From Streptococcus bovimastitidis (GTDB lineage: Bacteria; Bacillota; Bacilli; Lactobacillales; Streptococcaceae): DNA of 64,000 nt. How positions within the stretch are numbered: position 1 is the stretch's first letter; each line of letters starts with the position of its first letter. Made by a program: the position numbers and the translations under genes. The notes beneath the pieces were generated by a model. That model worked only from the letters and a program-made list of their open reading frames with translations, did not search any database and was not told the DNA's origin. Of the stretch, positions 2,068 through 14,991 are shown in pieces. The DNA is taken from assembly GCF_001885095.1 (NCBI RefSeq), contig NZ_LZDD01000002.1, forward strand, positions 248,001-312,000. The letters run 5' to 3'.

Positions 2068-2092
2068 GAAATCTTATAAGGAATATGCAAAA
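2068..2092 (+). other. attL of the integrated element
   Basis: GAAATCTTAT, four unlike bases, then AATATGCAAAA. The same two blocks with the same spacing occur at 14684-14708, across the ebfC start codon. The 10-base perfect block is the likely crossover region; the second block may reflect integrase binding. Confidence 0.7.
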
Positions 2093-2248
2093 CTTATTCC
2101 ACGATTTTTTAAGTCTCGAAATCGTCAGAAAAGTTAATTTTAAGCCTTTTAAAATTTACTAAGACCAACTAAAATCGCTTAAATTTATTACAATAAGACA
2201 AAAAATAGAAAACTATGGTTTCTTCTGTACATATATAAAACACTTCAC

Positions 2249-2275
2249 TATTTAAGTGAAGTATTTTTATTATTT
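2249..2275 (+). terminator. Hairpin with T-run near the left end of the element
   Basis: CACTTCACT / AGTGAAGT hairpin followed by ATTTTTATT. It would stop transcription entering the element from the orphaned ebfC promoter. Confidence 0.6.
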
Positions 2276-2380
2276 CTTTTGACGTCAAAATCTATTTGTT
2301 TTATTTTCAAGATATGATTATATTATTGTCTGACAAATATTTTTCACATTTCTTAAATTGATCATAGTAATGGTGAAAGT

Positions 2381-2935
2381 TTACAGCATTTTTATTTTTA
2401 ATGCATCTAGTCTATCAATTACCTCAAGTGAATAATTCTCTGTCCCATCTTAAAAATATACAAGCATTAACATTTTATATGTACCATCCACACCTTCAAG
2501 TAAAACAAAAATAAAATGAGATTGATTTTCATTAGGGTTATTCGAAATAAATGATTTTGGTACTATAAAGTTTTCATAGTGAAGTTTTGCAGGTTTAAAA
2601 GTATTAGATAATTCATCCAAATGAATATGAACTGAATTAAATGAAAAATAGTCATTATCAAGTCGATTCTCAAGAAGATTATTATCATTATGGAGTTAAA
2701 ACATAGGTCGATTTTATAGTGCCAGAATTTTCAAATACCCTTATTTTAGGGAATTCAATTTTCTTTTGCTCACCATTAAATGATGTTTTAATGTTTTAAT
2801 ATTTTATTTTTTGCTTTTTTTCTATTTTATAAGAAATTGAAAACCTTGATCTTCTATCTGACTTTATTACATTAGTGGTTTCTAAATTAATGGCTACAAC
2901 ACTGACAATCAATACAAAAAATGAGTTGGGTTTTT
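2381..2935 (-). pseudogene. Decayed membrane-anchored protein gene
   Basis: Minus-strand translation gives coherent but broken protein. It starts with a hydrophobic segment (PNSFFVLIVSVVAINLE), then a basic stretch and a stop. It resumes with KKIEFPKIRVFENSGTIK, shifts frame near 2690, and continues with HIHLDELSNTFKPAKL and FIFVLLEGVDGTYKML. An in-frame TAA follows, then NYSLEVIDRLDALK. The sense-like composition across at least three disruptions argues for a recently inactivated gene with one N-terminal membrane anchor and an extracellular domain. The family is not recognised and there is no intact copy in the window. Confidence 0.5.
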
Positions 2936-3106
2936 AATTATCTGTTTGTAAATATATATAATTATATCGAATAATTGGTTTACTCCAAATAGATCAAATA
3001 TTTTAATATATAGATGAGCAAAAAACATGCTATCCAAAACCAAAAAAAGTAAAAAAATTATTTTAATTTTTTACCTTTTTTTATACTGTTATTTAAAGTA
3101 TTTACA

Positions 3107-4813
3107 TTAAGTCCAAGATGTTTGGAAATCAAGTACTTTTTGATATTTTTTCTCTAAATCTTTAACAATATCGAACTCACCACCACTCTCATCAAACTTT
3201 TTTTTATATTCAATACTAGAATCTGAAAATAAAATTTCCTCAAAAAGTTCTTTCCCATATTCTAAATATTGTAAATTATTGTAAATTTGAAAATTTGCTA
3301 TATTTATATTGTTTTTTTCTTTACTTTGATTAGATATGATAGAAGCAACTAGTTTATAATTTATTTCAATTTGATATAAAATTCCAACACCGTCATTCGG
3401 AAAAATACTATCTACCGGCCAGATATCTGTATTGACTGCTATATTTTTATATAATATTAATTTCCAAAACTGTTCAAAAAATGCTTCAAAATAATTAATT
3501 CCGCCAATTTTTTTCCTAGATGTTAAAGAAGCACATAAATTTCTGCATCCCTCTCGGATATAATTATTATCAGCATATACTTCTGATTCTTTATGATACC
3601 ATTCTGAGAAGTCTTGATTATTATCATGCAATATTTTTAGAACATGTACTGCCATATTTAATATTGAATAGTCAGTTAGTACGTATTCACGTAATAGATA
3701 AAAACTTTGGTTATAGCTTAAATAGTTTCTTAAAAATTTGAATCCGTCATCTATTTTTTCAGCATACTTGTAAAAGTCATCATTTGTATCAAGTTTAAAT
3801 GGTTCAACAATATTAATATAAAAAAAATCAGTACCAAAAGCAGTTTGTTCGATTAACCAATTTTCAAAAGAAATTTTTAAGTTCAATATATCAAAAGATT
3901 CTTTTAGTAATATTATACAATCTCTAAATAATAATTTTTTTACAATTTCAGTGTCTTCGTCTTCATAGGCTAGAAGATAATTCTTCTCTCTCACTAGATT
4001 ACTAAATATCTCTTTACCGATTGTTTGACTAATAACTAATTTTAAGCAATCGAAATATTCTCTCTCAAACTCCTCTATTCGCATAGCGTAGTATGGACTT
4101 TTTATAAACATTGAAGCAATATCATCATTATTCAATTCAAAGAGACTGAATGCAACTTCTGAAGATTTATTACAAAAAAAAGCTAATTTTAACAAATTCT
4201 CATTTGACGGGTAGTCTAATCCGTTTTTCCAACGAGATACTTGCGCCTCACTAACATCTAGTATTTTTGCTAGTTCTTTTTGAACTGAAAGATATCCATG
4301 TACATTTCTACTAATTAGTTTTAGAGATATTAAATTATCATATAGTTCCTTTTTTTGATATCCCTGTAATTTCAAGAAATCTGATTTATCAGTATCATAA
4401 TCTACTTCATAGAGATTTGCTACCTGTTTTATAAAGCAAATAAGCTTATTGAAGTTTATCTTAAAATATTTCCGACGAGTATCTAGTAATTTTTCTTCAT
4501 TTATTTTTCTTAATTTATGAGTTGATAATTCTTTATTACAAAGTTTATATGTTTCAATATATAATTGATTAATTATTTTTTTCAAAGAAATATCAGAATC
4601 TATTGTTTTAGAATTAGTCTTATAAAATTGATCAATATAACTTAAAAATCGTTGTAACAACTTTCTATTTATATTGTTAGAACTTTTTTTCCAATTAGTC
4701 AAAGTATTTGGTGAAATATCTAAAACGTTAGCTAATGATTTAGAAGTTATACCAAACTGTTTTTTTAATACTATCAAAAATTTATTTAAAAATTCACTAA
4801 ATTCTTCATTCAT
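3107..4813 (-). CDS. Large protein with two XRE-like HTH segments, leaderless
   Basis: A 568-residue cytoplasmic protein counted from the ATG at 4813. Two helix-turn-helix segments are visible: residues about 22-48 (LANVLDISPNTLTNWKK) and about 177-204 (LAKILDVSEAQVSRWKNG), both XRE-like. The remaining roughly 360 residues are rich in aromatic and acidic residues and probably all-helical; no family is recognised. I chose 4813 rather than a GTG at 4837 because a promoter (TTGTAT, 17-base spacer, TATAAT) ends six bases before the ATG, giving a leaderless mRNA. It is divergent from the gene at 5061, with palindromes between them. Likely a DNA-binding regulator of the element's cargo; this is inference. 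There is no match to known phage repressors by length. Confidence 0.65.
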   Translation of the reverse strand: MNEEFSEFLNKFLIVLKKQFGITSKSLANVLDISPNTLTNWKKSSNNINRKLLQRFLSYIDQFYKTNSKTIDSDISLKKIINQLYIETYKLCNKELSTHKLRKINEEKLLDTRRKYFKINFNKLICFIKQVANLYEVDYDTDKSDFLKLQGYQKKELYDNLISLKLISRNVHGYLSVQKELAKILDVSEAQVSRWKNGLDYPSNENLLKLAFFCNKSSEVAFSLFELNNDDIASMFIKSPYYAMRIEEFEREYFDCLKLVISQTIGKEIFSNLVREKNYLLAYEDEDTEIVKKLLFRDCIILLKESFDILNLKISFENWLIEQTAFGTDFFYINIVEPFKLDTNDDFYKYAEKIDDGFKFLRNYLSYNQSFYLLREYVLTDYSILNMAVHVLKILHDNNQDFSEWYHKESEVYADNNYIREGCRNLCASLTSRKKIGGINYFEAFFEQFWKLILYKNIAVNTDIWPVDSIFPNDGVGILYQIEINYKLVASIISNQSKEKNNINIANFQIYNNLQYLEYGKELFEEILFSDSSIEYKKKFDESGGEFDIVKDLEKKYQKVLDFQTSWT

Positions 4814-4819
4814 AGTTTG

Positions 4820-4848
4820 ATTATAACCAAAAATCACAATAAATACAA
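4820..4848 (-). promoter_or_regulatory. Promoter giving a leaderless mRNA for the dual-HTH gene
   Basis: On the minus strand -35 TTGTAT (4843-4848), 17-base spacer, -10 TATAAT (4820-4825). The expected start of transcription coincides with the A of the ATG at 4813. No Shine-Dalgarno precedes that ATG. Confidence 0.65.
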
Positions 4849-4884
4849 AATGTCACTTAATTTTCAATTGGGTGACTATTGTAT

Positions 4885-4918
4885 TATTAATTTATGAGGA
4901 AAACCTCATAAATTAATA
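4885..4918. promoter_or_regulatory. 15-bp perfect palindrome between divergent genes
   Basis: TATTAATTTATGAGG, loop AAAA, CCTCATAAATTAATA: a perfect inverted repeat with no T-run after it on either side. It may be an operator for the dual-HTH protein or the first hairpin of the leader of the gene at 5061. Confidence 0.6.
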
Positions 4919-4940
4919 GTTCAAAAAGATGCGCATCGAA

Positions 4941-5060
4941 GAGCTACTAGAAAAATTATTTTGTTCTATTTACTAATTTCAATTTGAAATTGTTTTTAGT
5001 GTGATCTGATTTACAATTATAAAATTTTCCTAGTGGCTCCTTGGACAAAAGGAGCAACCT
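4941..5060 (+). promoter_or_regulatory. Candidate RNA switch masking the ribosome site of the 5061 gene
   Basis: GCTCCTT (5036-5042) pairs with AAGGAGC (5049-5055), which is the Shine-Dalgarno itself, over a 6-base loop. The same left arm can instead join a longer helix: 4941-4957 with 5023-5039, 16 of 17 positions paired counting one G-U. The two helices share 5036-5039 and are mutually exclusive, so the long helix would free the ribosome site. This layout resembles translational attenuators. The trigger is unknown. Confidence 0.5.
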
Positions 5061-5591
5061 ATGTCTAATATCGATGTGATATCTAAACTATACTATACAG
5101 CACTCGGTCAAACGCTAAGAGAGCGAATGAAATCCGAACATGTTAAAATTATTGATTTTGGCTTTGATGATGTCGATGATACAAAATTTTCCTCAGATTC
5201 GACAATTCGAGGAATTCTTAATGGAAATCGTAATCTAACAACGAACTCAGTAAAAATTTTTCTACAAACATTGAATTATAATACTTCACAAGAAATGTAT
5301 TTCCCCTCGGATGGGTTCTGCCTTCAAATCATTAAAGAAATTTTTAAACTAGTTATATATAGTAATCACTTCAATAATTCTTTCTTCAAACAAACAATGT
5401 TACAGCAATTAGGAAATAATCATTCAAATCCTGAATACATTGAGTATTTTGTGGAGGAACACAAAGAAATCTTTTTGAAATCATTCCTTACTATAGTTCC
5501 AAATGAATCAAAAGAATTTTCATCTAAGTATATCTCATTCCTAATCTGTGATTGGTTAATAGAGTTAGCATGTATTATTTCACAAAATTAA
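5061..5591 (+). CDS. Hypothetical protein with a divergent HTH-like N-terminus
   Basis: A 176-residue soluble protein. Residues about 17-75 have an XRE-like pattern: a first helix (LGQTLRERMK), then STIRGILNGNRNLTTNSV, which looks like the recognition helix and following helices of a lambda-repressor fold. The C-terminal 90 residues are helical with hydrophobic periodicity and could be a dimerization or ligand domain. It starts with a good AAAGGAG site at 7-base spacing, but that site is folded into a hairpin. It is divergent from the dual-HTH gene and probably part of the same regulatory circuit. No named family is recognised. Confidence 0.6.
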   Translation: MSNIDVISKLYYTALGQTLRERMKSEHVKIIDFGFDDVDDTKFSSDSTIRGILNGNRNLTTNSVKIFLQTLNYNTSQEMYFPSDGFCLQIIKEIFKLVIYSNHFNNSFFKQTMLQQLGNNHSNPEYIEYFVEEHKEIFLKSFLTIVPNESKEFSSKYISFLICDWLIELACIISQN

Positions 5592-5825
5592 CAAATCGGC
5601 CACCAAATATTTTGGGAGATTTATATTTATGTTTTCACTATTATATAAGTATAAGTAGCTAGTTTTCTTAGAAAACATCATACATGGGGACTTTTACAAG
5701 AAAGAGAAATAAAAATTCACAATAGAATTGATAATCTAAAATATTGAAGAAAAATAATTTTAAATATTAATATTTAGAATCAATCTCTATTATTGACACT
5801 AAAAAAATAAAGAGGACTAAAACAT
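5592..5825 (+). other. Gap with short broken reading frames
   Basis: Sense-like plus-strand fragments (for example LVFLENIIHGDFYKKEK after a stop near 5660) suggest remains of another gene. A weak CACCAAAT/ATTTTGGG dyad lies just after the upstream stop. Near 5785 an ATTGACAC could serve as a -35, but no good -10 follows. The AAAGAGGA ribosome site of the next gene ends the gap. Confidence 0.35.
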
Positions 5826-6215
5826 ATGAAAGAACTAATTACAACCATAGACAATATTATTCCCGACTTGAATGAACTTGATGATTACGTTTCTACAATT
5901 TCGGAAAGTTATTATATCTTCCACAATAAAAAGTATATATTTTCTGAACTTATTAATTCGGTTGGATACATAAGGAATCAAATCACTATAGATGAATTTT
6001 CTTATCACAATGATGATGAAATTAAGTCTCACCTAAATAATATTGATATGTACTTAAAAGATATAAATGCAATTTTATTATTTGTCCAAAAACTGAGTAA
6101 ACTTGAAAAAGAAGAACAATATCTATGCAATGCTTTAAAGGATTTTCAATTATTATGGAGAGAAATAACAAACTTGTTATTGGACTGTGCAATAAATCCT
6201 ATTACAGGTTTCTAA
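5826..6215 (+). CDS. Hypothetical small helical protein
   Basis: A 129-residue acidic protein, predicted all-helical, with leucine/isoleucine heptad-like spacing (LNNIDMYLKDINAILLFVQKL) that suggests a helical bundle or coiled coil. It has no signal peptide, membrane segment or recognisable motif. The start has an AAAGAGGA site about 9 bases upstream. It is followed by short broken frames and then an IS remnant, so it may be a surviving member of a damaged cargo operon. Function unknown. Confidence 0.5.
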   Translation: MKELITTIDNIIPDLNELDDYVSTISESYYIFHNKKYIFSELINSVGYIRNQITIDEFSYHNDDEIKSHLNNIDMYLKDINAILLFVQKLSKLEKEEQYLCNALKDFQLLWREITNLLLDCAINPITGF

Positions 6216-6350
6216 ACAAATCTGGGATGTCTAACTTTGAATCAAAAGATTTTAATAAGTGGTAAATAAATTTCCAAGAAATCATAAAAAAGAGTGAAGG
6301 TATATATTTTTAATCAACATTTAGAAAATTTAATAAAAAGAATGGAAAAT

Positions 6351-6600
6351 TGAAGTGCCCCCCAAATGTTAGACTAAATATTTAAGTTAAGGATTGAGTT
6401 CTGTATTGCACAGGACTTAGTCCTTTTAATGTAAGTTTGATTCGTTTAGTGTTGTAGTAGTTGATATATTCTGAAATAGCTGTTTTTAATGTTTCGAGGA
6501 AAGTAAATTCCTTCTCAAACCCATAAAACATTTCTGTCTTTAATGTTCCAAAGAAAGATACCTTCATGCCGTTGTCTAAGCAATTTCCTTTACGTGACAA
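6351..6600 (-). mobile_element. Terminal fragment of an IS3-family insertion sequence
   Basis: The end GAAGTGCCCCCCAAATGTTA at 6352-6371 has the look of an IS3-family (IS150 group) terminal inverted repeat. The adjoining sequence encodes only the last part of a transposase. The other end of the element and the first transposase frame are missing. Confidence 0.75.
6382..6600 (-). pseudogene. IS3-family transposase orfB, C-terminal remnant
   Basis: About 72 residues beginning SRKGNCLDNG and ending KGLSPVQYRTQS. This is the familiar C-terminus of IS150-group transposases, holding the final part of the DDE integrase core (the region normally reading N-A-x-E-x-F-F-G-x-L-K) and the YYNxKRI motif. 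The usual glutamate region reads GMKVSFFGTLK, so the catalytic E is replaced as well as the N-terminal part being lost. It cannot be active. Confidence 0.85.
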
Positions 6601-6901
6601 ATTTAAATTTTATAACCTTTAAAATCAGTATAAAAGTTATAGATTCTCTTATACCGCTACCTTCTCTCTATGTAGGGAACACATATAACTATATATAAAA
6701 AGCCTTTATTTAAAGGCTTTTATGCTTGTTTAAGTTAGATTTGTAACATCATTTGTCCCAGAAATTATTTACTATATTTTTTGATATTAACTTGAGAATT
6801 AGAAATTTTCTGACTTTCAATTGCTTCAAAATATTCTTTTCATACCTAATGCACAATTTTATTGATTCTCTAATAATTAATTGCCAATTCTTTTTATTAG
6901 T
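6601..6901. other. Intergenic stretch with one terminator
   Basis: AT-rich. Apart from the hairpin at 6698-6721 nothing supportable is seen. A TTG-initiated plus-strand frame starting at 6753 overlaps the 3' end of the next gene and has no ribosome site. Confidence 0.4.
6698..6721. terminator. Bidirectional intrinsic terminator
   Basis: AAAAGCCTTTA / TAAAGGCTTTT perfect 11-bp inverted repeat with a two-base centre and flanking A and T runs. Suitable for stopping the minus-strand gene at 6902-7792 and anything from the left. Confidence 0.75.
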
Positions 6902-7792
6902 TTACTCCTTCAATTTTACATTTAAGACATTTATTATCTCTTCTAAAGCGGGAGTATTAAATGTGTAAAATTTTATAGTTTTGCTTACCATGTATTTTTT
7001 TCCATTAAATTCTATAGGAATATTTTTTTGCGGTAAAGTCATATGAATAGAATCAGGAATAAACAATTTAGAATCAACAAGATTCGGTAATCCGTTTCTA
7101 TATTTAAAATTTGTATAGAATAATTTTTGTTGTTCTTCTGTTATGGTTTCTACATAAACTTCTAGCACTTCAGAATAAAATTCCTCTAATGCATCCCGCC
7201 ACTTATAAAACTCATCTATTAACAATATTTTATCATGATCAATAGTTTTTAAAAATTGATCGTTTTCACGATTAGCCCCATAATTCTTTTCTAAATCCCT
7301 TTTCTCACCGTAGATACTTAATTTATCAAAGGGCTGAGTAAAACTAATACTTCTAGTTAATCCTGAGATAGCTAAAGAATAATGTATGGAATAATCTCTT
7401 AATAATTTCATCATCTTAAAGGATTCGTTTCTATTATACTTTTTCTTTATAGCATTAAACTTGGGGTTTTGTAATTGCTTGCAGAAGTTTTGGTAATTAT
7501 CAAAAAGTAATCTCCCAAATATAACATTTGATACAAATCTATATTTTAGATGGGGATAGATTTTCATAATCTCATCATTATTCTCCTTATTACAATCAGG
7601 AGAACTGATAAAGTCTATTAAGTCAATTAAATCTTGTGTAGATATAATAAAATTATAGTAACAATCAACAATATTTGAAAATTTAGAGAAAGTTTGATAT
7701 AAACCTTCTAATTCATTAAACTCAATTTCAGTTAAATCAAAAATTTGATTTTGAGGTGATGTTTTATCACAAACATAATAGTTGTAATCCAC
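6902..7792 (-). CDS. Orphan protein with a HEPN-like R-x4-H motif
   Basis: A 296-residue soluble protein, GTG start supported by GGAGAG seven bases upstream. It is predicted mostly helical. Residues 131-140 read LRDYSIHYSL, in which R132-D133 followed by H137 fits the R-[N/D/H]-x-x-x-H signature of HEPN ribonucleases; an amphipathic helix precedes it, as in that fold. HEPN proteins are common in toxin and phage-defence systems, but this motif alone is weak evidence. The C-terminal part has beta-like stretches (IPIEFNGKKYMVSKTIKFY). It stands alone, without a partner antitoxin gene, between an IS remnant and the PadR operon. Otherwise unrecognised. Confidence 0.55.
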   Translation of the reverse strand: MDYNYYVCDKTSPQNQIFDLTEIEFNELEGLYQTFSKFSNIVDCYYNFIISTQDLIDLIDFISSPDCNKENNDEIMKIYPHLKYRFVSNVIFGRLLFDNYQNFCKQLQNPKFNAIKKKYNRNESFKMMKLLRDYSIHYSLAISGLTRSISFTQPFDKLSIYGEKRDLEKNYGANRENDQFLKTIDHDKILLIDEFYKWRDALEEFYSEVLEVYVETITEEQQKLFYTNFKYRNGLPNLVDSKLFIPDSIHMTLPQKNIPIEFNGKKYMVSKTIKFYTFNTPALEEIINVLNVKLKE

Positions 7793-7929
7793 TAGTAGAC
7801 TCTCCTGATTAAGTACTTAACAATAAACTTATGAAGTTATTATATGTAACAATTTTTATTGTTAGATAAAAGATGTAGTCAAATAATCTATTTCAAAATA
7901 AGAACTTGACACGATTTTATTCTCATTTT

Positions 7930-9183
7930 TTAATTATACAAATGACTTGGATGTACTGTGTCATATATTATTAATGCATCATAAGATTTTTTCGGTGTGA
8001 TTTGTTCAGTATAGAAAAACTTAATGAAGTTAAACGAACTTGTAACGTTAAATGAAGTCATTCTTTGCTTTTTATTAATGATTTTTTCCCATTTATTATC
8101 ATTTTCAACATCGGAAAATTTGATCCAATATTTCTTAGCTTGTGTAGATTTAAGTTGATCAGTTAACTCATTCTGATTATAACCCTTACTTTTTTTAAAG
8201 CCATTATCGGTTTGTGAATTGAAATGAGTATTCTTCGCATCAGTTCCAATAGCAAAGTATGATTGTTTATATTCATTTAATAATCGATTACCTAAAGATG
8301 TGTATAATGCACCCGATGACTTTCTGATATGACCATTATGCCCATTTATAAAAATGATAGAATTAGGTTCATGCTTTTTAATCCAATTTACTTTACTAAA
8401 CATGACAGAATCTCTTTTTTGATTATAGTTCTTTGCCGTAAATACTTTAGTGTATTGGATAAGAGAGTTTAAACACTCATTTGCAACTTCATAATATGAA
8501 GATCCTTTTCTACTTATTATTTTATCCTTGACAGTTATAAATTCTTTTCTTAATTCCAAAAGTTCTTTCTGTCCTGCTTTAACAGTTGTATTAGATAGGT
8601 TAGTCCTATCCCTATCATTTAAAGCATTTAGTTTCTTTTCATATTGTTGCTTTAATTCGGGATCAGCCAACTCTAGTGCTTCAAATAAGTATTTTTTACT
8701 GAAATCAAATCGTTGCATATCCATACCATAAAAGTGTAATTTTTCAGATGGGTTGGAAACTTTAGCATTATAATTTCTCATCCATTCAATCAGATTTACT
8801 AGCTCTTTTGTATGATACATTTGAAAACCAATATCTTGAACAACTTGCTTAGCCGAACCTTGTCCGCCTTGAATATACTTTTCAACATTTAAAGTTCCAC
8901 CAAAGTCACCTTCAATGACAAAGACTTTTGCTTTATTATTAGTAACCAATGCTTTAAAAATATCTATTTTTGTTTGATGATACTCCGCGACCCCATGACT
9001 AGCTTCTCCAAGTCCTACAATTTTCACTGAGGGATCAACCGAAAAATCTTTCATTTGTGTATTTAGTGTCTCTTGACTAACAGTAGTTGATTTAAAGTGA
9101 ATAAATTGCCAGCCAAAATACCCAATAATTAATATTATCATTATGAACATTGTTTCACCTGATAATTTAAAAAAATTTTTCAT
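7930..9183 (-). CDS. Membrane-anchored erythromycin-esterase-like protein
   Basis: 417 residues. One N-terminal membrane segment (about 12-29) places the rest outside the cell or tethers it to the membrane. The body matches the erythromycin esterase / succinoglycan-type hydrolase family. GLGEASHG at 57-64 carries the conserved Glu and His, FVIEGDFGG is at about 88-96, and INGHNGHI holds the later conserved histidines. Characterised Ere enzymes open the macrolide lactone ring, but they are soluble, so the membrane anchor here suggests another or an extracytoplasmic substrate. It is the last gene of a PadR-DUF2812 operon, and transcription is probably controlled by the PadR protein. Resistance is not shown by the sequence. 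Confidence 0.75.
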   Translation of the reverse strand: MKNFFKLSGETMFIMIILIIGYFGWQFIHFKSTTVSQETLNTQMKDFSVDPSVKIVGLGEASHGVAEYHQTKIDIFKALVTNNKAKVFVIEGDFGGTLNVEKYIQGGQGSAKQVVQDIGFQMYHTKELVNLIEWMRNYNAKVSNPSEKLHFYGMDMQRFDFSKKYLFEALELADPELKQQYEKKLNALNDRDRTNLSNTTVKAGQKELLELRKEFITVKDKIISRKGSSYYEVANECLNSLIQYTKVFTAKNYNQKRDSVMFSKVNWIKKHEPNSIIFINGHNGHIRKSSGALYTSLGNRLLNEYKQSYFAIGTDAKNTHFNSQTDNGFKKSKGYNQNELTDQLKSTQAKKYWIKFSDVENDNKWEKIINKKQRMTSFNVTSSFNFIKFFYTEQITPKKSYDALIIYDTVHPSHLYN

Positions 9184-9242
9184 TTTATCTCCTTTTTATA
9201 AAGTATCATTTTTTATTCTAAATTTTAATTTCAAAGTATATT

Positions 9243-9857
9243 TTATGGTTGATGGTCTTCTATTTTGGGCTTCACTGCTCTCGACATATAATATATTCCC
9301 GCAATTAATATATAAAACAAAGGCAAAATCCTTAATAAAACAAATGGTGTTTCAAATAGGAAAGCTAACCAAAACAATTTTCCATTCATCTCCCAAAGTC
9401 TAGGTGTTAAATACCAGCTTTGAGGATTAAGTATATCAATAGGAGTGATATTTATTAAAATAAAAAAATAAATAATAAAAATGAAAGCATACTCACTAGC
9501 ATATTTATAATAACTATTAGCCATTGCTGTTTTTGATTCATTGTCTGAAAATATTTCTGAACTAGTATTAGAATTTAGTTGCTGAAAATAATGGAGCCCT
9601 CCCCATCGACTCCCATTAATATGTTTCCAACCACTGTCTTCAAATAAAGTAATATAGTCTATATATTTGTCTCTTGACATATATTTTTTAAAATCCATTT
9701 TTATTAATTTATTATTTTCGATTTTATCATTTTTAAAATAGTATAAAGATGGAAGAAATAAGTTAACTCCAGTGAATCTAAAACCCTTTTTTTGAGTCAT
9801 ATTTATCCAGTCTTCCTCTTCTGCTACTGATTTAAAAAATAATTTAAATTTCATCAT
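9243..9857 (-). CDS. DUF2812 family membrane protein
   Basis: 204 residues from the ATG at 9857, chosen because AAAGGAG precedes it; it overlaps the PadR stop by 14 bases, giving translational coupling. The N-terminal 90 residues have the DUF2812 pattern (DYITLFEDSGWKHI and RWGGLHYFQQ). Two hydrophobic segments follow, near residues 120-140 and 165-195, the latter ending in a basic tail. DUF2812 proteins are regularly encoded next to PadR regulators, and their biochemical role is unknown. Here it sits between padR and an erythromycin-esterase-like gene, so the three probably respond to one membrane or drug signal. Confidence 0.8.
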   Translation of the reverse strand: MMKFKLFFKSVAEEEDWINMTQKKGFRFTGVNLFLPSLYYFKNDKIENNKLIKMDFKKYMSRDKYIDYITLFEDSGWKHINGSRWGGLHYFQQLNSNTSSEIFSDNESKTAMANSYYKYASEYAFIFIIYFFILINITPIDILNPQSWYLTPRLWEMNGKLFWLAFLFETPFVLLRILPLFYILIAGIYYMSRAVKPKIEDHQP

Positions 9858-10179
9858 AATTTTCTCCTTTAAAACCAATTAACTTTGCAGTACTCAATAA
9901 CTTAGTTAAGCGATTCGTTTCTAACTCTACAATTTCACGGCCTGCTTCAGTTATGATATAAACTTTTCTTCTACTGTCTTCACCTGGAACAGATTTTATC
10001 CATTTTTGTTTTAGAAGATTTTCAATAGCCCCATACATTGTTCCAGCAGCAATTCGTACATCTCCATCACTCATTTCCTCAACCTTTTGCATGATAAGAT
10101 ACCCGTGAGCTGGCTCAATTAAGGCTAATAGGACATAATAGGTTGTTTCAGTTAATGGGAGATTTTTGTTTCTTTTCAT
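9844..10179 (-). CDS. PadR family transcriptional regulator
   Basis: 111 residues, the length of the short PadR-s2 subfamily. A winged-helix domain covers residues 8-85: LTETTYYVLLALIEPAHGYLI, then IAAGTMYGAIENLLKQKWI as recognition helix, and the wing with YIITEAGRE. A C-terminal helix for dimerization follows. These proteins repress adjacent membrane or efflux genes and release DNA on binding small molecules. It is the first gene of the padR-DUF2812-esterase-like operon. A near-perfect promoter with a palindrome inside its spacer lies just upstream, so autorepression is expected. Confidence 0.9.
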   Translation of the reverse strand: MKRNKNLPLTETTYYVLLALIEPAHGYLIMQKVEEMSDGDVRIAAGTMYGAIENLLKQKWIKSVPGEDSRRKVYIITEAGREIVELETNRLTKLLSTAKLIGFKGENYDEI

Positions 10180-10214
10180 AAATTCACCTTTATATAGTTC
10201 GACTTTATAACACT

Positions 10215-10243
10215 ATTATATATAGCTAAACTATATATGTCAA
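10215..10243 (-). promoter_or_regulatory. padR promoter with embedded operator
   Basis: Minus strand -35 TTGACA (10238-10243), exactly 17 bases, -10 TATAAT (10215-10220): a consensus promoter. The palindrome ATATATAG-N5-CTATATAT (10218-10238) fills the spacer and overlaps both elements, the expected place and form for a PadR operator. Confidence 0.8.
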
Positions 10244-10373
10244 CTGTATATAGAAATTTTATTATTTAATGTTTTTTACTAAAATGACATTTCTTTGCAA
10301 AAGATTGCTGACCACCGGATAGTTTTAAATATTTTTTGATGTGTTTTTTTATGAAAAATTAAAAATAGGTACT

Positions 10374-10402
10374 ATCCACCAAAAATTTTGGCGGATTTTT
10401 TG
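10374..10402 (+). terminator. Intrinsic terminator ahead of the mobilization operon
   Basis: TCCACCAAAA / TTTTGGCGGA hairpin with one A-C mismatch followed by a TTTTTTG run. It isolates the following operon from upstream transcription. Confidence 0.65.
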
Positions 10403-10469: not shown

Positions 10470-10784
10470 ATGAAAACAAGAAATCGTCAAAGTGGCTATT
10501 CTGCCAATACTGCTAGTCAATATATTGACTCAAAAAATGCTATTCAATTGTTATCTGTTGACCTAGAACCACAATTAAAATTTGAAGATAATCAACCTAC
10601 AGATGAAATTATCGCTTATAAAGCATGGTTCTCACAAAAAGGACTTCCCCCTTTTCAAGTCAAATTTGAAACTAAGATAAATTTACCTAACTATTTATCC
10701 CTTATCGAATTTGATAATTTAGAAGCATGTGAAGTAGGATTTAATGTATACTTCCGCGCTAATGGTCTTAAAGAGGTTAAATAG
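10470..10784 (+). CDS. Small hypothetical protein, first gene of the mobilization operon
   Basis: 104 residues, AAAGAGG ribosome site. Soluble, with a polar N-terminus and a beta-like C-terminal half (LPNYLSLIEFDNLEACEVG, then VYFRANGL). Its stop overlaps the GTG start of the coupling ATPase by one base. In ICE/IME operons this place is often held by a small DUF961/YdcP-type protein. The ending faintly resembles that family, but I cannot claim it. Probably an accessory mobilization or regulatory protein. Confidence 0.6.
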   Translation: MKTRNRQSGYSANTASQYIDSKNAIQLLSVDLEPQLKFEDNQPTDEIIAYKAWFSQKGLPPFQVKFETKINLPNYLSLIEFDNLEACEVGFNVYFRANGLKEVK

Positions 10785-11862: not shown

Positions 11863-12480
11863 ATGAAAAACACTTTCTTTCAAAAAACATATTCTGTCAT
11901 AGAAACTTCCTTCTTCCTTGGTTTTACTAGTATGTTTTTATATATTGGAGTCTTGTTATTAAAAATAAGTATAGGCTCCATTAGTATAGAACCGTTAGAT
12001 AGCTTTATCAATATTTTTTTACAATATCTAAGTATTTTTTTACACTACTTAAAATTCCTTACGTATGGAATACTTATGATTCCTATCACATTACTTTTAA
12101 CTGAGTTTATGATACGTATTAGGCAAGATAACTTCTGGAATTATTTCAAATCTCTATATCAAACGAGACACCTAAGACAATTTCTAAAACAGGAAGAAAA
12201 GTCAGAGTCTGTCATATCTATAGATGATCAAAGATCTGTAACTAAGTTAAATCCAATATTAGAACAATTTAATCAGGCAATAGATAAGTGTCTTGTGGAT
12301 GTCCGTAATAAATCAGTTATTATATATATCCAATACCCTAAGACACAACAATCTCAAAAGTTATTGAAAGACATGGAAGAACATATTAAAGAGGAAGTTT
12401 CAAATCAAAATCCTAACTACTATTTCTCTGCACCAAACAGGGAAGGTAATAGTCTCTGGTATATTGGAACAAGAAGGTAA
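11863..12480 (+). CDS. Membrane protein of the mobilization operon
   Basis: 205 residues with two predicted membrane helices (about 19-42 and 62-86) and a C-terminal cytoplasmic domain from about 100 onward. It begins two bases after the coupling ATPase stop. The split, a membrane protein next to a soluble TcpA-like ATPase, suggests that it anchors the ATPase to the membrane; this is inference from context only. No named family is recognised. Confidence 0.65.
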   Translation: MKNTFFQKTYSVIETSFFLGFTSMFLYIGVLLLKISIGSISIEPLDSFINIFLQYLSIFLHYLKFLTYGILMIPITLLLTEFMIRIRQDNFWNYFKSLYQTRHLRQFLKQEEKSESVISIDDQRSVTKLNPILEQFNQAIDKCLVDVRNKSVIIYIQYPKTQQSQKLLKDMEEHIKEEVSNQNPNYYFSAPNREGNSLWYIGTRR

Positions 12481-12482
12481 GG

Positions 12483-12530
12483 AAAAGGCTGGCTAGGCTC
12501 ACGAAGTGAACGCCAATAGTACAGCCTTTT
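12483..12530 (+). other. Stem-loop at the end of the mobilization operon
   Basis: AAAAGGCTG / CAGCCTTTT outer stem with an inner TCAC-GAA-GTGA hairpin. It could terminate the operon or form part of the transfer origin. The T-run is short. Confidence 0.45.
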
Positions 12531-12545
12531 CATAACTAATAATTT

Positions 12546-12634
12546 GTAATGGGGCTACTACGACCCCCATTACATCAGTAATCAATAATCATAGATATGG
12601 TACATTGATTAATCAAAGATATAGAAAGATATAG
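12546..12634 (+). other. pMV158-type double-strand origin / oriT with nick site and iterons
   Basis: A perfect 9-bp hairpin GTAATGGGG / CCCCATTAC carries the 10-base loop CTACTACGAC. TACTACG/AC is the cleavage sequence of the pMV158 RepB initiator, so the expected nick is between 12562 and 12563. A 12-bp palindrome TTGATTAATCAA (12605-12616) and two tandem copies of AAAGATATAG (12615-12634) follow and resemble the RepB bind repeats. The rep gene starts 10 bases later. Confidence 0.8.
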
Positions 12635-12643
12635 GTTGTAATA

Positions 12644-13213
12644 TTGACTAAAGATAAACGCTCTAATAAATGGGCTTTCCTTATATATAAAGAAAGTGCT
12701 CCAGAAAATTATTTAGAGGTCTTAGAGGATTTACATATTCCATATATATTAAGCCCTTGGCATGATAAGGATATCAATAAAGAAACTGGAGAGTTCAAAA
12801 AATCACACAAACACGGTGCTTTATACTTCGAATCGTTAAAAAGCTATTCTCAAATATCAGAAATGCTGACTGAAAAACTTAACTCTCCTTCTCATATTGA
12901 AGTAATTATGTCACCAAAAGGTATGTATGACTATTTTACTCATGCAGAGAATCCTGATAAAACCCTTTATGATATCAATGACATTGAATCAGGATGTGGA
13001 TTTGAATTAGATAAATTTATTACTTCAAATAATAGTGATGAGTTTTTATCACAAGTTATTGACATTATTGAGGAAAATAATTTTACCGAATTTAACAAGT
13101 TAGTTCATTATGCAAGAAAGGAAGATAAATTGTTACTTGCTCTTATTATTGATAAAACTTACTTTTTTGCAAAATTTCTTGATTCTAGAAGAAATGAAAG
13201 AAAGGAATCTTAA
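12644..13213 (+). CDS. RepB-like HUH replication initiator / relaxase
   Basis: 189 residues of the Rep_2 (PF01719, pMV158 RepB) family. Motif residues are in the expected order and positions: PWHDKD (H40), SHKHGALYF (metal-binding H55, H57) and MYDYFTH (catalytic tyrosine, probably Y97). RepB itself is 210 residues with a C-terminal hexamerization domain, and here that part is shorter. The start is TTG at 12644, with AGG in ATATAGG upstream. With the origin just before it, the protein should nick TACTACG/AC. In an IME it probably acts both as replication initiator of the excised circle and as a non-canonical relaxase. Confidence 0.85.
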   Translation: MTKDKRSNKWAFLIYKESAPENYLEVLEDLHIPYILSPWHDKDINKETGEFKKSHKHGALYFESLKSYSQISEMLTEKLNSPSHIEVIMSPKGMYDYFTHAENPDKTLYDINDIESGCGFELDKFITSNNSDEFLSQVIDIIEENNFTEFNKLVHYARKEDKLLLALIIDKTYFFAKFLDSRRNERKES

Positions 13214-13214
13214 A

Positions 13215-13466
13215 ATGATAAAACTTGTAAATAAAAATGATTTAATGGTCTTAACTGGTCTCTCTGAGAGTCAAACTAAAAAGCTCATTCGAAATGCTAA
13301 AATTAATCTTGTTTCCCAAGGTTTTAGTTGGTACTCTAATAAACGAGTTGGAAAAGTTCCATTAAAGACTGTTGAAGAGCTTCTCGGAATTGAGTTATTA
13401 GATGAAAATGATATAATAAATAACGTACAGAAAGATACTGTCTCTAGCAAAGAGGAGCAAAAATGA
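13215..13466 (+). CDS. DUF3173 family protein, probable excisionase-like DNA-binding protein
   Basis: 83 residues from the ATG at 13215, one base after the rep stop; the longer frame beginning at 13110 is inside rep and has no ribosome site. The sequence LVNKNDLMVLTGLSESQTKKL is a MerR/Xis-like helix-turn-helix, followed by a wing (SNKRVGKVPLKTVEELLGIE). This is the DUF3173 pattern, regularly found immediately before integrases of streptococcal ICEs and IMEs. It overlaps the integrase start by four bases (ATGA). The likely role is to direct excision, by analogy with Xis. Confidence 0.8.
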   Translation: MIKLVNKNDLMVLTGLSESQTKKLIRNAKINLVSQGFSWYSNKRVGKVPLKTVEELLGIELLDENDIINNVQKDTVSSKEEQK

Positions 13467-14614
13467 CAGTAACTAGACAAAAAAATAAAAAATGGAAGGT
13501 GGATATTAGTGACGGTTATAATCCTATTACAGGTGAACAGAGACGTCACAGGAAAACAGATTTCAAGTCAAGAAGAGAAGCTGAACAGTATGAAGCAGAC
13601 TATCGTTTAAATAAACTCCACCAAGTATCATATAAAGATAGAATCTCAGTTGAATACCTTTATGGTTTAGTAAGGATTGAGGATAAACTCCGAGGTAATA
13701 AACGAGGAACTATTGATACGCAAGAGTCATATTTTAGACAATATGTGTCTACTTATTTTTCTAAAGCCGATATGAGTAAAGTGACTATTTATGATATAAA
13801 AGATTATAGAGATTGGTTAAAATCACAACCTAGCATTAAAGGGGGTAATTTATCAAATTCTCATGTTAATCAACAAATGATTTTTGTACATAAATTATTT
13901 GAAGTTGCTGTAAATAACCAATTAAGGCAAGATAATCCTTGTTCTGGAATACGTAGATTACCTGAAAAACATAAAGAAATGAACTATTATACTCCTGAAC
14001 AATTCAAACAATTTGATAGTGTCTTTAAAGAAGATGAATATTCATTCCAATTATTATATAGACTTCTGATGTATACTGGTGTCCGAATGGGTGAAGCTTT
14101 AGCCTTAACATGGAATAATGTAAACCTTGTCGAAAAGTATATTGATATTCAATATTCGGCATATTATAGAAATAATAAACTCCATATTGGAACTGTTAAA
14201 ACAACCCAGTCTAATAGAAGAATTTATATTCATGATGCTTTCGTTACAGAATTAAAAGAATGGAAATATAAACAGAAAGTAATACTTAAGGATTTCACTA
14301 ATGATTTAGAGAGTTTACAAATTTTTCAAAGTACACCGGAAGTTTTAACAACTCCAAATATTTCTAACTTTAGAATAATTTTGAAAAAAAGATTATCTCC
14401 AAATATAGTGTTAATTCGAAATCACGATTTTCGACATTCTCATGCTGCATTCTTAATCTCACAAGGGCTTCGAAATGTTGAAGGAAAAGATTATATATTC
14501 TTTACTTTGATGAAAAGACTTGGACACTCATCAATTAATACAACTATAAATGTATACTCACATTTATTTCCCACACAACAAAAAGAGATTGCATCTGCTT
14601 TTGATAATTTTTAA
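13463..14614 (+). CDS. Tyrosine integrase of the element
   Basis: 383 residues. An AP2-like arm-binding domain covers about 8-50 (DGYNPITGEQRRHRKTDF), a SAM-like core-binding domain about 62-160, and the catalytic domain 170-380. Catalytic residues are visible: R208 in GVRMGEAL, K246 in TVKTTQS, H321-x-x-R324 in HDFRHSH, H355 in LGHSS and nucleophile Y365 in NVYSHL. All six are present, so the enzyme should be active. It lies 70 bases from attR at the ebfC start codon, the usual place for a site-specific integrase. Translationally coupled to the DUF3173 gene. Confidence 0.93.
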   Translation: MTVTRQKNKKWKVDISDGYNPITGEQRRHRKTDFKSRREAEQYEADYRLNKLHQVSYKDRISVEYLYGLVRIEDKLRGNKRGTIDTQESYFRQYVSTYFSKADMSKVTIYDIKDYRDWLKSQPSIKGGNLSNSHVNQQMIFVHKLFEVAVNNQLRQDNPCSGIRRLPEKHKEMNYYTPEQFKQFDSVFKEDEYSFQLLYRLLMYTGVRMGEALALTWNNVNLVEKYIDIQYSAYYRNNKLHIGTVKTTQSNRRIYIHDAFVTELKEWKYKQKVILKDFTNDLESLQIFQSTPEVLTTPNISNFRIILKKRLSPNIVLIRNHDFRHSHAAFLISQGLRNVEGKDYIFFTLMKRLGHSSINTTINVYSHLFPTQQKEIASAFDNF

Positions 14615-14683: not shown

Positions 14684-14708
14684 GAAATCTTATGATGAAT
14701 ATGCAAAA
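14684..14708 (+). other. attR of the integrated element, across the ebfC start
   Basis: GAAATCTTAT-GATG-AATATGCAAAA, the partner of 2068-2092. The perfect 10-base block includes the first two bases of the ebfC ATG. Confidence 0.7.
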
Positions 14709-14991
14709 TATGATGAAACAGGCACAAAAGCTTCAGAAACAGATGGAACAAAAGCAGGCTGATTTAGCGGCTATGTCTTTCGTTGGAAAGTCTGCTCAGG
14801 AACTTGTGACGGCTACTTTTACGGGTGATAAGAAATTGGTTTCCATTGATTTTAAGGAAGCTGTTGTGGATCCTGAGGATCTTGAGACTTTGTCTGATAT
14901 GACGGCGCAAGCGATTAATGATGCTATGACTCAGATTGATGAAGCAACTAAGAAGACGCTTGGTGCTTTTGCTGGCAAAATGCCATTCTAA
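14692..14991 (+). CDS. ebfC: YbaB/EbfC nucleoid-associated protein
   Basis: 99 residues with the [19 protein letters not shown] start typical of YbaB/EbfC. A long N-terminal helix is followed by a beta sheet ([16 protein letters not shown]) and closing helices, forming a dimer that binds DNA without strict specificity and helps organise the nucleoid. The mobile element has joined to its start codon. Its own promoter is at 2032, 12.6 kb away, so expression now depends on readthrough or on a promoter in the element's right end. The ribosome site GAAAGGA lies about 14 bases before the ATG, a longer spacing than usual, as expected if the original leader was exchanged. Confidence 0.95.

Follow-up and report, generated by a model that had tools for sequence, protein, structure and literature searches.

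Upstream of an integrated gene for a RepB-like initiator protein in Streptococcus bovimastitidis, a hairpin carries the sequence at which RepB of plasmid pMV158 cuts its DNA. This raises the question whether the locus is where the excised element starts its transfer, its copying, or both. We analysed it within a 64,000-nt stretch of the chromosome (here, the window), to which all coordinates refer unless stated otherwise (Table 1). We consider it about 75% probable that this locus serves a mobilizable element, integrated at ebfC, as its initiation origin and is nicked by the element's own RepB for transfer or copying.

Table 1. Features of the element and its candidate origin, with positions in the window
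Feature	Coordinates	Strand	Basis
Candidate attL, 23/25 identical to attR	2068-2092	+	blastn-short; candidate boundary
orf1 of mobilization cassette, 104 aa, no Pfam family	10470-10784	+	Homologues in relatives
tcpA-like gene, FtsK/SpoIIIE-type coupling ATPase, 358 aa	10784-11860	+	Weak Pfam match, PHROG, homologue
orf3, 205 aa, hydrophobic N-terminal half by eye	11863-12480	+	Conserved position in relatives
Bulged hairpin, candidate single-strand origin or relaxosome recognition element	12484-12529	+	Fold, model R1, covariation
nic hairpin, perfect 10-bp stem and 10-nt loop	12545-12574	+	Sequence, fold, compensatory arms
Nick sequence TACTACG/AC, predicted cut between 12562 and 12563	12556-12564	+	pMV158 identity
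7-bp tandem repeats TCAGTAA TCAATAA TCA, proximal-direct-repeat type	12575-12591	+	Sequence; kept in relatives
AAAGATATAG x2, bind locus proposed earlier, not conserved	12615-12634	+	Sequence, cassette comparison
rep, RepB-family HUH endonuclease, 189 aa, TTG start	12644-13213	+	Pfam, residue alignment
DUF3173 protein between rep and integrase	13215-13466	+	Pfam
Tyrosine integrase	13463-14614	+	Pfam; several close relatives adjoin ebfC
Candidate attR, overlapping ebfC start	14684-14708	+	blastn-short

The nick sequence, as the nine-mer TACTACGAC, occurs once in the whole window. Because 14 of 100 shuffled windows also contained at least one copy (mean, 0.15), nine letters are weak evidence by themselves and conservation is the proper test; the case for a predicted nick site is made by loop position, gene order, and conservation and not by the nine-mer alone. 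The hairpin arms (12545-12554 and 12565-12574) enclose the loop CTACTACGAC (12555-12564), and the structure folds as DNA at -8.9 kcal/mol (z, -4.5), a stability equaled by 0 of 200 shuffled sequences. The intact PF01719 (Rep_2/RepB) gene begins 81 nt downstream of the nick site and 69 nt from the hairpin. The first-pass annotation had placed an exact pMV158 RepB cleavage site in a perfect hairpin loop, with the nick at 12562/12563; the 10+10 stem and the nine letters bear this out, the cut would fall where it had been placed, and the nick sequence is identical to that given for pMV158 in the passages of PMC5030251 used here. The locus thus has one hallmark of a pMV158-type origin, TACTACG/AC in a hairpin loop.

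Conservation was assessed on 33 loci from a scan of the genome collection (PF01719 matches were present in 123 of 284 same-genus genomes), 74 further stretches, of which L153 is only the left neighbor of the window itself, and plasmid relatives. The resulting survey set comprised 115 loci with 119 rep genes, with broken pieces counted and tblastn hits below 60 bits (e.g., L079) dropped. ACTACGA was found within 400 nt upstream of 112 of the 119 rep genes, a count that includes near-duplicates because some of the genus genomes are the same records as named loci; comparison over 300 nt to either side leaves 88 distinct cassettes. The seven misses are four pieces of two broken Lactobacillus reps that have neither tcpA nor the nick motif (L033 and L034), a distant plasmid with 38% identity (L080), and two one-base motif variants still placed in a hairpin by eye (L119 and L139). 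The loops are nearly fixed (TTACTACGAC in 57 and CTACTACGAC in 15 of the 88), and the arms vary yet stay paired through compensated changes: among the 34 distinct hairpins of 66 motif loci, 28 to 34 are paired at each of positions 1 to 9, with shuffle means of 8.6 to 16.5 at pairs 5 to 9. The motif is still present beside the broken or short rep frames of L030, L078, and L156 and can, therefore, outlive the gene.

Directly 3' of the right arm, the window has conserved repeats of TCANTAA units. At this position, CANTAATCANTAATCA was detected in its strict form in 67 of the 88 distinct cassettes and in a looser form in 9 more, and the 12 cassettes beyond these 76 pattern matches have two copies by eye. 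Two 7-bp proximal repeats are likewise reported at the pMV158 nick in the parts of PMC9943647 drawn on here, and the locus shares this second trait of a pMV158-type origin (12575-12591). The tandem AAAGATATAG, which the first-pass annotation had proposed as the RepB bind locus, exists, yet is found in only 2 of the 88 distinct cassettes, the window and its near relative L118, and we rejected it in this role. The pair is altered in L110, and an unrelated short tandem repeat occupies its position in four other cassettes. The same parts of PMC9943647 place the bind locus of pMV158 84 bp downstream of its nick and give it three 11-bp repeats. Across cassettes, the distance from nick to start codon ranges from 42 to 329 nt and is <84 nt in 52 of 88, so that cassettes do not in general have a distal bind locus at a fixed place; as three 11-bp repeats at this distance were not found at the locus, we do not class it as a complete pMV158-type origin.

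The rep product matches Rep_OBD (PF01719; E value, 4.9e-46; 156.3 bits versus a cut-off of 24.6) and, in its C-terminal part, the oligomerization domain RepB_C (PF21861; 1.2e-18; 67.2 bits versus a cut-off of 27.3), and phmmer matched it to RepB structures (E value, 1.1e-12). H40, D43, H55, H57, Y97, and Y109 align with H39, D42, H55, H57, Y99, and Y115 of pMV158 RepB, active-site residues as named in the passages of PMC5030251 used here. With Rep_OBD, the HUH metal ligands, the catalytic tyrosine, and the C-terminal oligomerization domain, the protein is a member of the RepB/PF01719 family. Every one of the 112 aligned reps that reach 120 aa retains all six residues; 7 shorter or broken ones were left out of this set, which overlaps with but differs from the 112 motif-bearing reps. 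The window rep starts with TTG and has a poor ribosome site by eye; 109 of the 119 rep genes start with ATG.

The common gene order in relatives is orf1-tcpA-orf3-origin-rep. Both tcpA and orf3 accompany 93 of the 112 motif-bearing reps, 14 have tcpA only, and 5 have orf3 only; orf1 homologues with 40 to 77% identity lie upstream of rep in 28 of 36 loci. orf3 is kept between tcpA and the origin, and its product had only a Pfam match below cut-off, which we read as chance. The tcpA-like protein matches Pfam FtsK_SpoIIIE at 20.6 bits, below the cut-off of 24, matches an FtsK/SpoIIIE-like PHROG at 2.4e-16, and is 77% identical to WP_011669127 of plasmid pLLUC047G, a protein assigned to the TcpA family in the parts of PMC5357655 used here. 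It is through these FtsK-like matches and this homologue, rather than through a TcpA model, that we recognise the TcpA-type coupling protein of an integrative mobilizable element (IME) of class 2; the other mark of that class, a complete integrase and a PF01719 relaxase in one element, is also present. The locus does, as claimed at first pass, adjoin a coupling ATPase and an integrase. The PHROG terminase/FtsK matches of tcpA were considered as a sign of phage and read as a shared ATPase fold, and a phage origin was rejected, all 33 phage records with a PF01719 match having <60% identity. In two genome regions (L096 in G140 and L101 in G222), two rep cassettes lie ~8 to 10 kb apart, and these are probably neighboring elements.

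By its candidate ends, a putative att repeat of 25 nt with 2 mismatches between them, the element spans ~12.6 kb and abuts ebfC (14692-14991). Relatives of the integrase (at least 45% identity) follow 9 of the 119 rep genes, the window included, each with a DUF3173 gene, whose product has what appears to be an excisionase-like position. ebfC was found in six of these nine loci, which amount to three or four different records, each of two pairs being a single record; it was not found in L032 or its duplicate L152; the near relatives L118 and L110 also adjoin ebfC. Further left, outside the window, a second att-like copy (21/22; window coordinate -5041) points to a pair of adjacent elements at ebfC. 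In a scan of 10 ORFs, with incomplete coverage of 2068-10400, we recognised no type IV secretion system (T4SS) genes and no other relaxase; AAA_10 (VirB4-type) matches are on contig C1, and the window is on C2. By eye, a short ORF at 6382-6600 resembles the end of an IS3-type transposase and is likely an insertion-sequence remnant within the element, and the ORF at 7930-9183 looks like an erythromycin-esterase-type family protein.

Plasmids with related cassettes bear on what the cassette is for. From 64 records with 60 to 80% identity, seven were chosen and read whole, and in all seven the cassette rep stands beside another initiator, annotated as 'replication initiator protein A' or 'RepB family' and 0.9 to 1.3 kb in size; the seven are not independent, as one and the same Rep or FtsK protein recurs in some of them. 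Six have an FtsK-like gene, pUCCL640F being the exception, and p1196B additionally has a MobT-type relaxase. Five of the seven, with an FtsK-like gene and rep, are typed 'non-mobilizable' by MOB-suite. RepA annotations are also present in pY80 and S. aureus 358 unnamed4, two partly read records, and an integrase beside rep in two partly read records indicates that these are probably integrated elements. Given the other initiator in all seven plasmids, the cassette probably serves as a module for mobilization and possibly, in a second use, for replication, and a relaxase role of rep is favored. The composition of the cassette and these plasmids fit the earlier suggestion that RepB may act as a non-canonical relaxase; the double role as replication origin and oriT proposed with it is plausible, has been published at the class level, and now appears better supported.

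An alternative is that the locus is an oriT only, with Rep as a relaxase and an excised circle that is not replicated beyond the round of transfer. The other initiators of cassette-bearing plasmids suit this explanation, as does the 69-nt gap between origin and rep, which leaves no room for a copy-control gene; against it, the excised forms of ICEBs1 and Tn916 are replicated by their MobT relaxases as well, as stated in the passages of PMC5704250 used here, and on balance we find an exclusive oriT doubtful. For transfer, a TcpA-type helper is proposed in the parts of PMC5357655 and PMC5704250 drawn on here; TcpE had no match in the window's genome, and such a helper was, thus, not found in this genome. 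The genome has a VirD4/TrbL/VirB4-type T4SS region and a PF02486 protein. A conjugation region at G000:C1:222000-241900 (L233), with VirD4-, TrbL-, and VirB4-like proteins and an AbiEii-type gene, is probably another type of integrative conjugative element (ICE) within the same genome. PMC11097999, on mobilization of lactococcal plasmids, mentions neither FtsK nor TcpA nor RepB.

A second structure, between the orf3 stop codon and the nic hairpin, is a bulged hairpin (fold z, -5.0) with a 10-bp outer stem, inner stems of 3, 3, and 4 bp, and 2-nt bulges on the 3' side. Among 25 relatives picked for a good fit to the bulged-stem template (28 before identical ones were removed), 94.4% of cells pair, a value flattered by the template-based selection, and double changes, less affected by it, occur at 18 of 20 pairs and in 118 cells versus 38.6 in shuffles. 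Sliding the partner cuts the pairing to 33 to 46%. The hairpin of the window, which is less regular and outside the training set of model R1, scores 34.3 bits with this model and is its sole match in the window at E values of ≤1. In 60 of 284 same-genus genomes, R1 matches 63 places, of which 62 immediately precede a PF01719 rep and share its strand (comparison by eye) and the last is in G174, in the decayed element L225. No R1 match at E values of ≤1 was obtained in six loci of the orf3 type (L017, L020, L028, L082, L125, and L156), and L078 matched at 0.32 only; folds show the hairpin in all seven despite the poor matches. R1 had no match in 12 loci with a divergent tcpA (24 to 44%) and none at E values of <0.1 in 40 loci around longer, divergent PF01719 matches (L171, 0.28); the matches from the same search of divergent loci were L158 and the window only. 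An earlier pattern search gave 19 hits, with 15 by a PF01719 rep and L158 among the other four; the remaining three (G006, G062, and G220) lie in the coding sequence of an apparent purL and were dropped as chance. Rfam gave no match near the gathering score over the region.

At L158, homologues of tcpA (70%) and orf3 (25%) lie beside a Viral_Rep/helicase-like Rep with Pfam PF02407 and PF00910 matches, both just below cut-off. R1 finds the bulged hairpin in 1 of 16 loci with such a Rep, and L158 has the hairpin core only (21 of 47 model positions; 27.8 bits). The loop of its nick-type hairpin is TAGTATTAC, which we take to be the nanovirus-type nonanucleotide. The bulged and TAGTATTAC hairpins (G055:C1:343000-351500, 4067-4230) are inverted relative to tcpA, orf3, and rep, and the order of hairpin, then nick is preserved on the presumed nicked strand though this is opposite to the genes. 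Of the other Viral_Rep/helicase-like loci, 10 have the motif in a stem of 7 bp or longer, and in all 10 it is on the rep strand.

The inversion with its order kept, a single case, speaks for the bulged hairpin acting as DNA and against its being no more than a terminator of transcription or an RNA regulator in the orf3-rep interval. The position after the orf3 stop codon and the A-rich and T-rich flanks of many copies are what a terminator would have, but the outer stem changes between copies without loss of the 3'-side bulges, and several copies have no T run; the structure is also absent from the list of a terminator scan, which counts for little since the scan seeks unbulged stems. We consider a terminator or RNA regulator unlikely. 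In most rolling-circle plasmids, a single-strand origin lies upstream of the double-strand origin and acts in an orientation-specific manner, according to the passages of PMC4595007 used here. The bulged hairpin occupies this usual position, and our guess, by analogy, is that it may be a single-strand origin. A covarying bulged hairpin 5' of the nick is new here.

A mosaic filter over 73 full cassettes passed 52 of 2,628 pairs, and in 24 of the 52 the best breakpoint was within -50 to +49 of the nick; L101 supplies many of the 52 pairs, and grouping by eye gave about a dozen events, of which four (L101, L022, the window versus L110, and L030 versus L084) have support intervals that reach the nick region. 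The cleanest recombinant, L101, matches L132 at 99.9% identity over ~2.15 kb to the left of the nick and L023 at 100% over ~0.6 kb to the right; it follows both parents almost perfectly up to the shared stretch around TTACTACGA, and its hairpin arms are mismatched. L022 joins an L130-like left part (90%) to an L014-like right part (88%), and the window and L110 are 92.5% identical on the left and 74% on the right, the changeover falling somewhere from -18 to +33. The remaining breakpoints map to gene borders or to other places (about -2100 to -1750, -1194, -657, -77, and +85). An earlier count, which put 26 of 29 breakpoints of mosaic pairs in the interval from -50 to +49, was biased towards the nick because the pairs had been chosen by their contrast there. 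L225 (G174:C1:1861000-1869000) is a decayed element with its junction at the nick (position 4360): its homology to relatives, the best of which are 86 to 89% identical over the preceding 1 kb, ends 2 nt past the nick, and within its 8 kb rep and integrase had no match. A 32-nt stretch just right of this junction recurs (88%) at G174:C1:1861710, and the two copies are possibly flanking att repeats.

In a Tn916-type ICE, a chimera junction at nic has been ascribed to the relaxase, as stated in the parts of PMC7563491 used here. The nick-region recombinants together with L225 suggest cleavage in vivo, and the junctions fit joining by Rep; they could also have arisen by ordinary recombination within the shared sequence around the nick. 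Natural recombinants joined at the nick region are new here. More tentatively, the bulged and nick hairpins might together be a single, strand-specific origin unit passed among unrelated Reps (the RepB type and that of L158), the nick being a natural exchange point where elements swap their orf1-tcpA-orf3 and initiator-integrase halves by strand transfer that Rep carries out. On this reading, the bulged hairpin would be a structure for conversion or for transfer recognition that has not been described before and is common to many mobilizable elements and to plasmids typed as 'non-mobilizable'.

Conversely, the origin and Rep might only copy the excised circle, with the TcpA-like ATPase doing something else and no transfer starting here. 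Although the nick sequence, the active site, and the proximal repeats are those of a rolling-circle replicon, this is quite improbable in view of the tcpA and orf3 genes that accompany most motif-bearing reps, the second initiator of all seven plasmids and the FtsK-like gene kept in six, and the failure to recognise another relaxase among the 10 ORFs scanned. That the locus is a dead plasmid remnant without function, as the TTG start and the TcpA-type helper not found in the genome might indicate, is very hard to reconcile with intact reading frames and active site, a perfect hairpin, and near relatives that also lie by ebfC.

The hairpin, its loop, the repeats, the intact enzyme, the cassette, the covariation, and the nick-region recombinants are observations at the sequence level. 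The locus is most likely a working nick origin of a known element class, very probably the start point of the excised element's transfer and perhaps of its copying. From these sequences we infer how the origin would be bound, cut, and used in transfer and replication, and what the bulged hairpin would do, as follows. After excision, RepB would bind the 7-bp repeats and the right arm, extrude the hairpin, cut TACTACG/AC with Tyr97, and stay on the 5' end, and the strand starting with the right arm, the repeats, and rep would be unwound. For transfer, the element's own TcpA-type ATPase would lead this strand to the secretion channel of a helper; for replication, the strand would simply be displaced during rolling-circle copying. 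The bulged hairpin would become single-stranded last and most likely serve either conversion to double-stranded DNA, as a single-strand origin, or recognition of the strand at termination. The predicted cut, the repeats, the second conserved structure, and the nick-region recombinants make the relaxase proposal of 2017 directly testable, and the features of the locus offer a sequence signature for spotting mobilizable plasmids.

Among known systems, the element belongs to IME class 2 (PF01719 relaxase and TcpA), known since 2017. In the parts of PMC5357655 and PMC5704250 used here, PF01719 proteins are proposed as IME relaxases that work with TcpA and possibly serve both transfer and maintenance, TcpA is present in 34 of 35 PF01719 IMEs with tcpA upstream of the relaxase gene, and neither a nick site nor proximal repeats nor a bulged hairpin is described for these IMEs. 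The element resembles class 2 as given there (Coluzzi 2017, PMC5357655) in its tyrosine integrase, its PF01719 relaxase, and its place at ebfC, a known site of IME integration; the class 2 example IME_SdyRE378_ebfC is, unlike the element of the window, listed without TcpA in those parts of PMC5704250.

The likeness to pMV158, which was absent from the compared collection and whose origin features were taken from papers, lies in TACTACG/AC in a loop, 7-bp proximal repeats, the HUH active site, and the C-terminal oligomerization domain. In pMV158, copG lies between the origin and repB, and the antisense RNAII takes part in control; at the window locus, copG is absent from between origin and rep, where 69 nt are too short for it, and so are the three 11-bp distal repeats at +84. 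The window locus further differs in being chromosomal and in having TcpA and an integrase. With the MobT systems of ICEBs1, Tn916, and ICESt3, it shares an initiator-like protein, here a proposed relaxase, and a nic in a hairpin loop, in these systems with transfer and replication (passages of PMC5704250 and PMC9371924), and a nic-joined chimera is reported for a Tn916-type ICE (passages of PMC7563491); MobT is a PF02486 protein with a CT'AA nic (the same passages of PMC9371924), unlike the PF01719 rep here, and these ICEs carry their own T4SS. IMEs with a Viral_Rep/helicase-like Rep, such as L158, differ in Rep type and in the TAGTATTAC loop and resemble the element in tcpA, in orf3, and, at L158, in a bulged hairpin core placed 5' of a nick-type hairpin.
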